Shown: one piece after another, positions 5,554 through 8,392 of the stretch
How the letters are laid out: each line of letters begins with the position of its first letter
Numbering within the stretch: position 1 is the stretch's first letter
Assembly (NCBI RefSeq): GCF_039645985.1
Contig: NZ_CP147919.1
Coordinates: 2,418,001-2,482,000 of the forward strand
Source: Sulfurimonas sp. HSL3-7
GTDB taxonomy: Bacteria > Campylobacterota > Campylobacteria > Campylobacterales > Sulfurimonadaceae
Direction: 5' to 3'
DNA: 64,000 nt
Program-made: the position numbers and the translations under genes
The notes under the pieces: model-generated
What the model was told of the DNA's origin: nothing
Databases searched by the model: none
The model's input: only the letters and a program-made list of their open reading frames with translations

Positions 5554-6015
5554 TTAATGTTCCACAGGCGGCATCATCGGTTGCTGAACCGGAGGGAAAC
5601 GCGGTGGCGATTGTGGTGCTGAACGTTCTTTCGACGGGCTGCCTCCGCCATTTTCGCCGCTGCCGTCCTGGTATATCTCACTAACATTGGGACGAATACC
5701 GTAGAGCACATGATACTCCCTGACCGCTCCTCTAAAATATGCTCTACGCTTCCGGTCCCCTTTTTTGATCACCTGCCGGATCTGGTATTGCTCATCCAAA
5801 GAGATCTGCTCTTTGCAGTATGCCAGATAGACGATTGCCGCATCGATGAGATCATTGACCAGGTCATAGCGTTCCCGGTAAGAGCTGCCGCCGATCTCCT
5901 CCATTCTGTACTTTGCCGTAGCATAGGCCTCTTCATACGCCTCGCAATCCGTTGCCGCAAGAGCACTGTCAAGCATCAGTAACAGCAGTCCCGCTGCGAT
6001 CGCTACCCGTTTCAC
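5554..6015 (-). CDS. Secreted hypothetical protein with Pro-rich tail
   Basis: Unknown function. From the GTG at 6015 the product is 153 residues: a signal peptide ending near SALAA, a helical charged domain with two cysteines (TDCEAYEEAY and LAYCKEQ), then a low-complexity Gly/Ser/Pro tail. The longer reading from ATG 6039 would put 8 residues before the signal peptide and overlap the upstream gene by 28 bp. The GTG overlaps the upstream stop as GTGA, which is typical of translational coupling, so I prefer it. The centre (C..SLDEQY..R..IK) resembles the upstream gene product (C..SLDRQY..K..K), so the two look like diverged paralogues of a periplasmic family. Confidence 0.7.
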   Translation of the reverse strand: MKRVAIAAGLLLLMLDSALAATDCEAYEEAYATAKYRMEEIGGSSYRERYDLVNDLIDAAIVYLAYCKEQISLDEQYQIRQVIKKGDRKRRAYFRGAVREYHVLYGIRPNVSEIYQDGSGENGGGSPSKERSAPQSPPRFPPVQQPMMPPVEH

Positions 6016-6380
6016 GGTACCGGCCTTATCGTGCCCCATTTATAGACAATGATCTCTTCAGGGTGCCTGAACGCATAACTGCTAACCTCTGACTGGGTAA
6101 ACACGTCATAGCTCTTACGATTCTGTTTTGCCGTTTTGAGTTTGCGTTTGAGTGTATATTGACGGTCCAGGGAATAGAGGTCCGGACATCTTTGTAATAA
6201 CAGTTCCCCTTCTTTGACAAATTTTCCGATAATTGCATAGGCTTCATTGCCGGCTACAGCGATGCTTGCTACCGTATCGTAGGCAGACTCCTCTTTTTCA
6301 AAAGAGCGCTTCATCTCTGCACACTCATCTGCTTTCAAAGACATCAACAAAAGAAAAATTGAAAGGATTATGCGCTTCAT
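6012..6380 (-). CDS. Small secreted hypothetical protein, paralogue of its downstream neighbour
   Basis: Unknown function, 122 residues. Signal peptide (KRIILSIFLLLMSLKA) followed by a charged helical domain with two cysteines (ADEC at the mature N-terminus and LLQRCPDL near residue 65), so a disulphide in the periplasm is plausible. The SLDRQYTLKRKLKTAKQNRK stretch parallels the next gene. Its stop overlaps that gene's start by 4 bp, so the pair is co-translated. Confidence 0.65.
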   Translation of the reverse strand: MKRIILSIFLLLMSLKADECAEMKRSFEKEESAYDTVASIAVAGNEAYAIIGKFVKEGELLLQRCPDLYSLDRQYTLKRKLKTAKQNRKSYDVFTQSEVSSYAFRHPEEIIVYKWGTIRPVP

Positions 6381-6441
6381 ACAACCATTCTAGCGTATAA
6401 ACGGTTTACTGAAAATGGTGGGTTTTCAAATAAAAAAGGAG

Positions 6442-6798
6442 AGTTGGCTTTTTATAAAGTCTCCGGCGTCGGTATTCACTTTCGTGAACACATCGACTTC
6501 GGGTTCGCCACCTAAATTTGTTCCAAAGGCTATTTGCCTTTGTTTCTATTGATGTTCAAGCCGGCGTCGGTGCTTCGCACATCGACTCTGGTTTCGTTCG
6601 CTGAAAAGCCAAGAAATTGGCTTTAATGGAGCTCTCCCTTCGTCGGTATTCACTTTCGTGAACACACCGACTTCGGGTTCGCCACCTAAATTTGTTCCAA
6701 AGGCTATTTGCCTTTGTTTCTATTGATGTTCAAGCCGGCGTCGGTGCTTCGCACATCGACTCTGGTTTCGTTCGCTGAAAAGCCAAGAAATTGGCTTT
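6442..6798. repeat. Two-unit tandem hairpin array (158-bp units, 174-bp period)
   Basis: The 431-bp gap between argS and the secreted-protein pair holds two nearly identical units, 6467-6624 and 6641-6798, with one clear difference. Each unit contains four inverted repeats in order: GTCGGTATTCAC/GTGAACACATCGAC, CAAAGGC/GCCTTTG with TATTT loop, GTCGGTGC/GCACATCGAC, and AAGCCAA/TTGGCTT with GAAA loop. The first and third hairpins share a GTCGGT...ACATCGAC frame followed by a GGxTTCG tail. A partial unit end (TTGGCTTT) precedes unit one at about 6444. No ORF is credible here. The last hairpin may also terminate argS. Confidence 0.85.
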
Positions 6799-6800
6799 TC
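6781..6800 (-). terminator. Likely argS terminator (last hairpin of the array)
   Basis: AAGCCAA-TTTC-TTGGCTT followed by TTTTC when read on the minus strand, 12 bp past the argS stop. It is the fourth hairpin of the second repeat unit, and its near symmetry would allow termination in both directions. Confidence 0.55.
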
Positions 6801-6811
6801 TTATCGCGAAC

Positions 6812-8392
6812 TCACATCCTATCTTTTGCGGTGATGCCCAGCAGGGAGAGACCGGTACGCAGTGAGAGTGCGACGACAAGGAAAAGCTTGAGCATCTTCG
6901 CCTCGTCTTTTTCGCCGATGATGCGGTAGTCGTAGTAAAATTTGTGCAGTCTTGCCGCAAGTGACTTGAGGTACTCCGGCAGTTTCTGGACCTGGCGCGT
7001 CATAAACGCGTCTTCGATCACTTCCGGCAACAAAAGAGCCTCGAAAAGGAGCCCGTCGGCATCCTCGTTGAGTCCTTTGAGATCACTCGCCATGATCTCA
7101 TCTCTCGAGAGTTCACTCTTGCCGAGTATCGTCTGAATACGCGCATGCGCGTAGTTGATATAGTAGATCGGGTTCGAACTGTCCTCTTTTTTGAGCTCTT
7201 CGACATCGAACTCGAGCGGCGTGTCGCTCTTTTTGCTCGCGAAAATAAAACGAAGGGCATCGGAACCGATCTCTTCGATGATATCGCTCATCAGTATGAC
7301 GTTGCCCGCCCGTTTGCTCATCTTGTACGGCTCGCCGTCTTTGAGCAGGCTGACCATCTGCGAGAGCTGTACTTCGAGTTTGCTGCTGTCATGGCCCAGG
7401 AACTCGGCTGCAGCCTTTACCCGGGGGATATAGCCGTGGTGGTCGGCACCCCAGATATTGATGTGGTGGTCGTAACCGCGCTCGAACTTCTGGTTATGGT
7501 AGATGATATCGCCGGCCAGATAGGTCGGACGGCCGTCTTCGCGCACAACGACACGGTCTTTCGCATCGTCGTAATCGGTTGAACGGAGCCAGATCTTATC
7601 TTCGAGATGGTAGACACCCCCGGCCATCTTGGCCATGACACGATCCCACTCTTTGTAAAGTGACGCTTCGGAGACAAAGGTATCGAAATGGATGTTCGCA
7701 TCGGCAAGATCCTTAATGATGATCTCCATCACCTTGTCTTTTGCCCAGAGCGCCAGCTCTTTCTGACGGTTCTCGTCATGAAAGATCTCTGTTCCGAAAA
7801 CCGCTACCGCTTCCTTTGCAAGGTCTGTCATATACTCGCCGCGATAGAAGCTCTCAGGGTATTCGACCTCTTCATTGAGGATGGAGGAACGTCCCTCAAG
7901 TTGAATAGAGAGCCCCAGAAGATCGATCTGGTTACCGGCATCGTTGACATAGTACTCGGCAGTGATATCAAAACCGAGCTTACGCCCTAAACGCAACAGT
8001 GTGTCACCGTAGACCGCACCGCGTGCGTGGCCGATATGTAACGGGCCTGTCGGGTTGGCACTGACGAACTCCAGCAGGATCTTCTCATTGGCATTGACAG
8101 AACCGAACTGCTCTTCGTTCTCAAGCGCCCATGAAGCGTACTCATCCAGAAATGACTCGGAGAGACGTAGGTTAATGTAGCCCTTTACCGATTCAACCGC
8201 CGAGAACATCGGGTCTTCGCCAAACGAAGAGGCCAGTTCATCGGCAATGGCCATCGGTGATTTGCGGAATTCTTTGGCTAGGGAAAATGCGACTGGTGTT
8301 GCGAAGTGGCCAAAAGAACGATCTTTCGGCTTCTCTAAAACAACATCTCGATCAAACTGCTCTCTAAGGAGCGCTGCAACACGTTGTTTCAA
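6812..8392 (-). CDS. argS: Arginyl-tRNA synthetase
   Basis: Class I aminoacyl-tRNA synthetase that charges tRNA-Arg with arginine in the cytoplasm. The 526 residues are close to the usual 530-580. Visible: N-terminal additional domain, nucleotide-binding motif HIGH (119-122, context GPLHIGHARGAV), the GADHHGYIPR region, KMSKR(AG)N in place of KMSKS, and a C-terminal DALR anticodon-binding helical domain (DEDADG...YDYRIIGE). It starts 3 bp after the tatA stop, so they share a transcript; I recall the same argS-tatA order in Campylobacter. Confidence 0.97.
   Translation of the reverse strand: MKQRVAALLREQFDRDVVLEKPKDRSFGHFATPVAFSLAKEFRKSPMAIADELASSFGEDPMFSAVESVKGYINLRLSESFLDEYASWALENEEQFGSVNANEKILLEFVSANPTGPLHIGHARGAVYGDTLLRLGRKLGFDITAEYYVNDAGNQIDLLGLSIQLEGRSSILNEEVEYPESFYRGEYMTDLAKEAVAVFGTEIFHDENRQKELALWAKDKVMEIIIKDLADANIHFDTFVSEASLYKEWDRVMAKMAGGVYHLEDKIWLRSTDYDDAKDRVVVREDGRPTYLAGDIIYHNQKFERGYDHHINIWGADHHGYIPRVKAAAEFLGHDSSKLEVQLSQMVSLLKDGEPYKMSKRAGNVILMSDIIEEIGSDALRFIFASKKSDTPLEFDVEELKKEDSSNPIYYINYAHARIQTILGKSELSRDEIMASDLKGLNEDADGLLFEALLLPEVIEDAFMTRQVQKLPEYLKSLAARLHKFYYDYRIIGEKDEAKMLKLFLVVALSLRTGLSLLGITAKDRM

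Follow-up and report, generated by a model that had tools for sequence, protein, structure and literature searches.

The window analysed here is a 64,000-nucleotide stretch of the Sulfurimonas sp. HSL3-7 genome (NZ_CP147919.1, positions 2,418,001 to 2,482,000 of the forward strand), and the feature of interest is an array of hairpins that directly follows the stop codon of argS. Its neighbours, argS (6812-8392) and a 122-aa open reading frame (ORF; 6012-6380), share the minus strand, so the array does not lie between convergent genes as a preliminary description had stated. The 122-aa ORF adjoins a second small minus-strand ORF of 161 aa (5554-6039) downstream of the array, and neither gave a Pfam match. 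The covariance model cited below, R1, describes two hairpins and was built from alignment A1 (MAFFT) of twenty complete copies.

6460..6517, plus strand: left-hand degenerate module of unit 1 (TCTCC and a GTCGGTATTCAC..ATCGAC hairpin); weak covariance model match, 15.4 bits, E 0.045
6467..6624, plus strand: unit 1, 158 bp, from the direct-repeat search; one base different from unit 2
6558..6640, plus strand: two-hairpin core in unit 1, lacking the right closing stem; R1, 63.6 bits, E 7e-15
6641..6798, plus strand: unit 2, 158 bp, from the direct-repeat search
6732..6817, plus strand: complete two-hairpin core, ending on the argS stop codon; best R1 match in the window, 104.1 bits, E 1e-25, and itself among the seed sequences of the model
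6740..6760, plus strand: core hairpin 1, with GTCG/CGAC stem, A-T bulge, inner hairpin, and TTC loop; pairs covary
6770..6811, plus strand: outer closing stem, GTTCGC (6770-6775) with GCGAAC (6806-6811), enclosing hairpin 2; covariation
6777..6800, both strands: core hairpin 2, A-tract, covarying G+C stem, and T-tract, terminator-like; covariation and T-tract counts
6812..6817, minus strand: junction, last argS codon ATG and stop TGA (TCACAT on the plus strand); from element-free argS orthologues
6812..8392, minus strand: argS, arginyl-tRNA synthetase, stop codon supplied or abutted by the element; Pfam DALR_1, tRNA-synt_1d, and Arg_tRNA_synt_N

The two 158-bp units form a direct repeat with a spacing of 174 and are identical at 157 of 158 positions, the only difference being T at 6493 in unit 1 and C at 6667 in unit 2. 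Each holds four hairpins (6468-6497, 6524-6542, 6566-6586, and 6603-6624 in unit 1; 6642-6671, 6698-6716, 6740-6760, and 6777-6800 in unit 2), which confirms the earlier account of eight hairpins in two near-identical units. The feature reaches 6817 when the right closing stem and the junction TCACAT are included. Folded as RNA, positions 6430-6810 give -134.7 kcal/mol on the plus strand (z -7.4 against shuffled sequence) and -129.4 kcal/mol on the minus strand (z -7.0); the fold is far from chance, yet without strand specificity. The array is a tandemly doubled version of a short two-hairpin element, with one recent tandem duplication in the window.

This building block, as captured by R1, is a two-hairpin element of ~86 bp (~80-86 bp). 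On the plus strand it reads as an optional AAGCC/GGTTT pairing, hairpin 1, an outer stem that encloses hairpin 2, and then (T/C)TCA. Hairpin 1 combines a 4-bp covarying stem with a small inner hairpin, and on its 3' side carries a bulge conserved as AT or AA; in hairpin 2 a covarying G+C stem lies between an A-tract and a T-tract. Across 121 distinct copies, 90.5% of cells are paired and double changes occur at 28 of 29 pairs (719 double-changed cells), values reached by 0 of 500 shuffles, and pairing falls to 37-48% in slid-partner controls; it should be kept in mind that this alignment was fitted to the structure and is to that extent biased in its favour. Covariation looks the same in the smaller alignment A1, again from chosen copies that also served to draw the structure. 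Five of the six outer-stem pairs covary with few unpaired cells, and the innermost is mostly unpaired across copies.

Is this pairing maintained in an RNA? The preliminary description had proposed selection on a plus-strand RNA, since unit 1 has a G-U-compatible pair where unit 2 has a Watson-Crick pair. That contrast is a single substitution within the bulge of the family fold, where the dinucleotide is AT or AA in 118 of 121 aligned copies and AC in none; thus the unit-1 base fits the family, and the C of unit 2 is the odd one. At the 23 core pairs of the same 121 copies, G.T mismatches (27) and A.C mismatches (30), as summed from the pair table, are equally rare; the outermost AAGCC/GGTTT pairing, a fixed G.T in one sub-type and unformed in others, was left out of this count. 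A constraint on single-stranded RNA should favour G.U on one strand, so this balance, together with the position of the substitution, led us to reject plus-strand RNA selection. Substitutions do keep the pairing, as that description would have it, but the pairing is Watson-Crick on both strands. The equal rarity of the two mismatches fits a DNA-level constraint, a both-strand terminator, or template switching, whereby one arm is copied onto the other and hairpins are created and maintained (PMC8794818). The hairpins may accordingly owe their upkeep to recognition as single-stranded DNA, to RNA constraint acting on both strands, or to such template switching.

A DNA search returned seven matches in the 2.87-Mb home genome (the two in the window included) and matches in 12 of 60 genomes. 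With R1, the home genome yields 25 matches at E<=1 and 20 at E<=0.001, tandem clusters among them; it thus holds about 20-25 dispersed copies. Matches to R1 occur in 94 of 200 sampled genomes of the family (12 of 18 genera, E<=0.001), in 108 of 299 genomes of the order (42 of 82 genera), and at up to 23 copies per sampled genome. Inspected directly, those from other families of the order share this architecture and the junction. The exact core pattern is present in Sulfurimonadaceae and Helicobacteraceae metagenome assemblies, Sulfurovum sp., and Sulfuricurvum sp., and going by the names of these records the order appears to be Campylobacterales; viral contigs gave 0 exact pattern matches. This spread across family and order supports two of the three possibilities first raised, a repeat family and a REP-like element; the reading as a plus-strand RNA does not hold. 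Copies at the same gene in different genomes have a median identity of 67.1%, and copies at different genes of one genome are slightly more alike (70.5%). In the literature that we consulted, general REP surveys aside, no such element is described from Sulfurimonas, Sulfurovum, or epsilonproteobacteria.

Some variants are worth recording. Four home-genome loci (L101, L103, L105, and L107) represent a related sub-family framed as GCGTCGGCTAAAAA..hairpin..TTTAACGCCTTTGGC; another dispersed repeat, CTCGCTTACGCTCAGACAGAGTG, adjoins some of its copies. In some other copies (L040 and L031) the loop of hairpin 1 contains a large insert, and these inserts have the motif ACTTTATCCAAAGAAAATATCCAT..AGGATATTTCTCTTTGGCATATC in common.

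The end of the element typically falls exactly on the stop codon of a neighbouring core gene, and its commonest terminus is TGAG on the gene strand. We viewed 105 copies in their surroundings. In 47 the element's TGA (TAA in two of them) is preceded by ATG, and nearly all of the 47 close long ORFs in frame; where AGG, AGA, ACA, or some other triplet stands there, the copy is, with few exceptions, intergenic. The 45 gene-end copies that close long ORFs in frame cluster into 11 gene families, and 44 of them follow a Met codon. Genes at the junction include argS, groEL, and radA-like and fabG-like genes, with an RNase J-like gene also recurrent; apart from argS, these were recognised from C-terminal sequences without a database search. 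By a rough ORF count, argS is the one Met-ending gene of 53 in the window, and about 25 ATGTAA, ATGTAG, or ATGTGA sites are intergenic there, so if a sequence target were all that mattered, most copies should be intergenic. It follows that either the target extends beyond the hexamer or copies at gene ends are retained by preference. Because the source copies of the model end in TCACAT, ATG-type ends may be over-represented in the sample; this bias does not account for the split between gene ends and intergenic positions among the ATG-type copies.

Comparison of orthologues reveals a change of stop codon. Element-free argS genes end in ATG-TAA or ATG-TAG, or in several genomes extend beyond that Met, and those with the element (genomes G000, G001, G002, G003, and G007) end in ATG-TGA-G. 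In one further genome (G018, locus L144) the usual C-terminal end of argS is missing and the frame enters element sequence to finish in a different tail, possibly because an insertion interrupts the gene or because the assembly is faulty there. For groEL, 32 of 50 genomes are empty, all with TAA or TAG, 13 are filled with TGA, and 5 are filled with a sub-type that keeps TAA. On the groEL tree, the element has been gained or lost at the same nucleotide at least 10 times, and at least 4 of these filled/empty changes are forced by well-supported (starred) branches. In the groEL pairs compared, homology breaks at the ATGT of the stop codon, after which the downstream DNA differs or resumes later; resumption is often late, or absent within 1.5 kb, and no clean junction marks the far end of the insertion. 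No target-site duplication was seen at gene-end copies.

A nested arrangement in another genome (G114; loci L325, L379, L383, L305, and L315) shows the limits of the core. There, a MITE family with inverted repeats CTGATGTTACGCACTT / AAGTGCGTAAGGTCAG occurs in two sizes, 142-143 bp without the hairpin core and 206-217 bp with it. The shorter copies hold a small palindrome, AGGGACAAATGTCCCT or a variant, and the core takes its place in the longer ones: the empty form reads CAGGGACA-AATGT-CCCTACAACC and the core-bearing form CAGGGACA[GCC...TTTTCA]CCCATACAACC. The core is thus a discrete module of ~80 bp, and the difference between the two forms could reflect its gain or its loss. One of these MITE copies has a possible duplication, TCATTAA.

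Hairpin 2 has the build of an intrinsic terminator, a G+C hairpin followed by a T-tract, and the eight positions that follow it hold a mean of 5.8 T on the plus strand and 4.6 on the gene strand. A stricter consensus terminator scan listed other hairpins of the array and not this one. On the basis of sequence, hairpin 2 probably acts as a bidirectional intrinsic terminator, and in the window the predicted terminator would part argS from the minus-strand ORFs at 6012-6380 and 5554-6039. A promoter-like site with a weak consensus match lies at 6415-6387 on the minus strand. Like known bidirectional intrinsic terminators, hairpin 2 has an A-tract, a G+C stem, and a T-tract; unlike them, it belongs to a dispersed element that also includes another conserved hairpin, one with a bulge.

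Taken together, we consider it reasonably probable that this is a REP/MITE-like, non-coding palindromic DNA element that favours Met-stop gene ends and is probably kept as a bidirectional terminator. The two-hairpin core would spread as DNA and occurs by preference at gene ends reading ATG-T(A/G)A, where in the commonest form the TGAG terminus would replace TAA or TAG as the stop and leave the protein intact. Once installed, hairpin 2 may be domesticated as a bidirectional terminator, which here would insulate argS from the minus-strand genes that follow it.

Comparison with known repeats helps to place the element. It is REP-like in the general sense, being a palindrome present in many copies, most of them extragenic, and enriched at the 3' ends of genes. 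Like the GTAG and CGTC REPs described in Di Nocera et al. 2013 (PMC3733652), it consists of small palindromes dispersed 3' of genes, falls into sub-families whose stems differ by complementary changes, has bulges in its stems, and has termini that often serve as stop codons. It differs from them in joining two unlike hairpins in a set order (~86 bp against 20-40 bp), in lacking a conserved GTAG or CGTC tag, and in supplying TGA right after a Met codon. Both REP types are reported there from Sulfurovum sp. NBC37-1, with which our comparison is by description and not by the sequences in the figures, so that partial overlap is possible. Mobilisation of a GTAG-type REP by a RAYT (Y1 HUH) transposase or another IS200/IS605-like enzyme would suit a small palindrome 3' of genes, the TAG stop that GTAG REPs are reported often to give to flanking ORFs (PMC3733652), and the presence of Y1/RAYT-like (PF01797) genes in 30 of 60 relatives. 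However, the hairpin foot reads exactly GTAG in only 16 of 121 copies (it is mostly NNAG) and the CGTC tag stands at the tested position in 0 of 121, which speaks against membership of either superfamily. The 32 Y1/RAYT loci gave 0 R1 matches beside them, and the two RAYT-like Y1 transposase genes of the home genome (L081, C1:1571473-1571805; L082, C1:2353733-2354065), also without adjacent copies, each sit between their own, unrelated inverted repeats (e.g. AATTACACCCCAGGGGTTGAATCTCCAC; AGGGGTCAGGTGATACC). The RAYT-REP partnership was rejected on these grounds, and we regard mobilisation of this kind as unlikely. The element resembles MITEs as a short, non-autonomous repeat, and its core sits within a true MITE in G114, but at gene ends neither terminal inverted repeats nor a target duplication is clear; by eye, its two ends show an ATGTKA-like similarity to each other. 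BIMEs and other mosaic intergenic repeats are likewise modular arrays of differing hairpins with tandem duplications; here, unlike there, polarity is fixed to the stop codon and the orientation is direct, not alternating. A recombination site that folds as a single strand and serves a tyrosine recombinase, like the attC sites of integrons, would agree with the internal loop and conserved two-base bulge of hairpin 1, the Watson-Crick pairing, and arrays of modules directly after stop codons. Against it, neither core sites nor consistent R-boxes (GTTRRRY/RYYYAAC) at the ends were seen by eye, the arrays read contain no ORFs between modules, and no recombinase was linked with the element in these analyses; we give it a very slim chance.

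Two further readings were weighed. In one, the element is a non-mobile 3'-UTR RNA structure or terminator that certain core genes inherit vertically, its paired changes maintained by selection or by the template switching described above (PMC8794818). The recurrence of argS, groEL, and the radA-like and RNase J-like genes in many genomes agrees with this, as does the terminator-like hairpin 2. Against it stand the gains or losses at groEL, at least 10 in number, intergenic copies away from gene ends, copies nested in a MITE, and the similarity of same-genome copies at different genes, which is no lower than that of same-gene copies in other genomes; we think it rather improbable. A plus-strand small RNA, the other, has in its favour the strong plus-strand fold, but the minus strand folds equally well, G.U is not in excess, its single clue was the bulge change, and the array matched no Rfam family at gathering thresholds (a permissive scan gave one chance-level match, E 2.2); we consider it very improbable.

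The REP/MITE-like element that we favour could also be understood more specifically, and here we are tentative, as an undescribed mobile hairpin pair of Campylobacterales that homes to stop codons, its insertion favouring ATG-T(A/G)A by way of some recombinase and re-supplying both stop and terminator. If so, this re-supply would let a homing element occupy essential genes harmlessly. Palindromic short repeats near stop codons are common, and the basis of their site choice is rarely clear. What is added here is an element found across the order and linked to gene ends of the Met-stop type. Its covariation without strand bias is a caution against naming such repeats RNA genes, and with one groEL nucleotide repeatedly filled or emptied, 44 of 45 gene-end copies after a Met codon, and the nested comparison, both target choice and mobiliser become testable.
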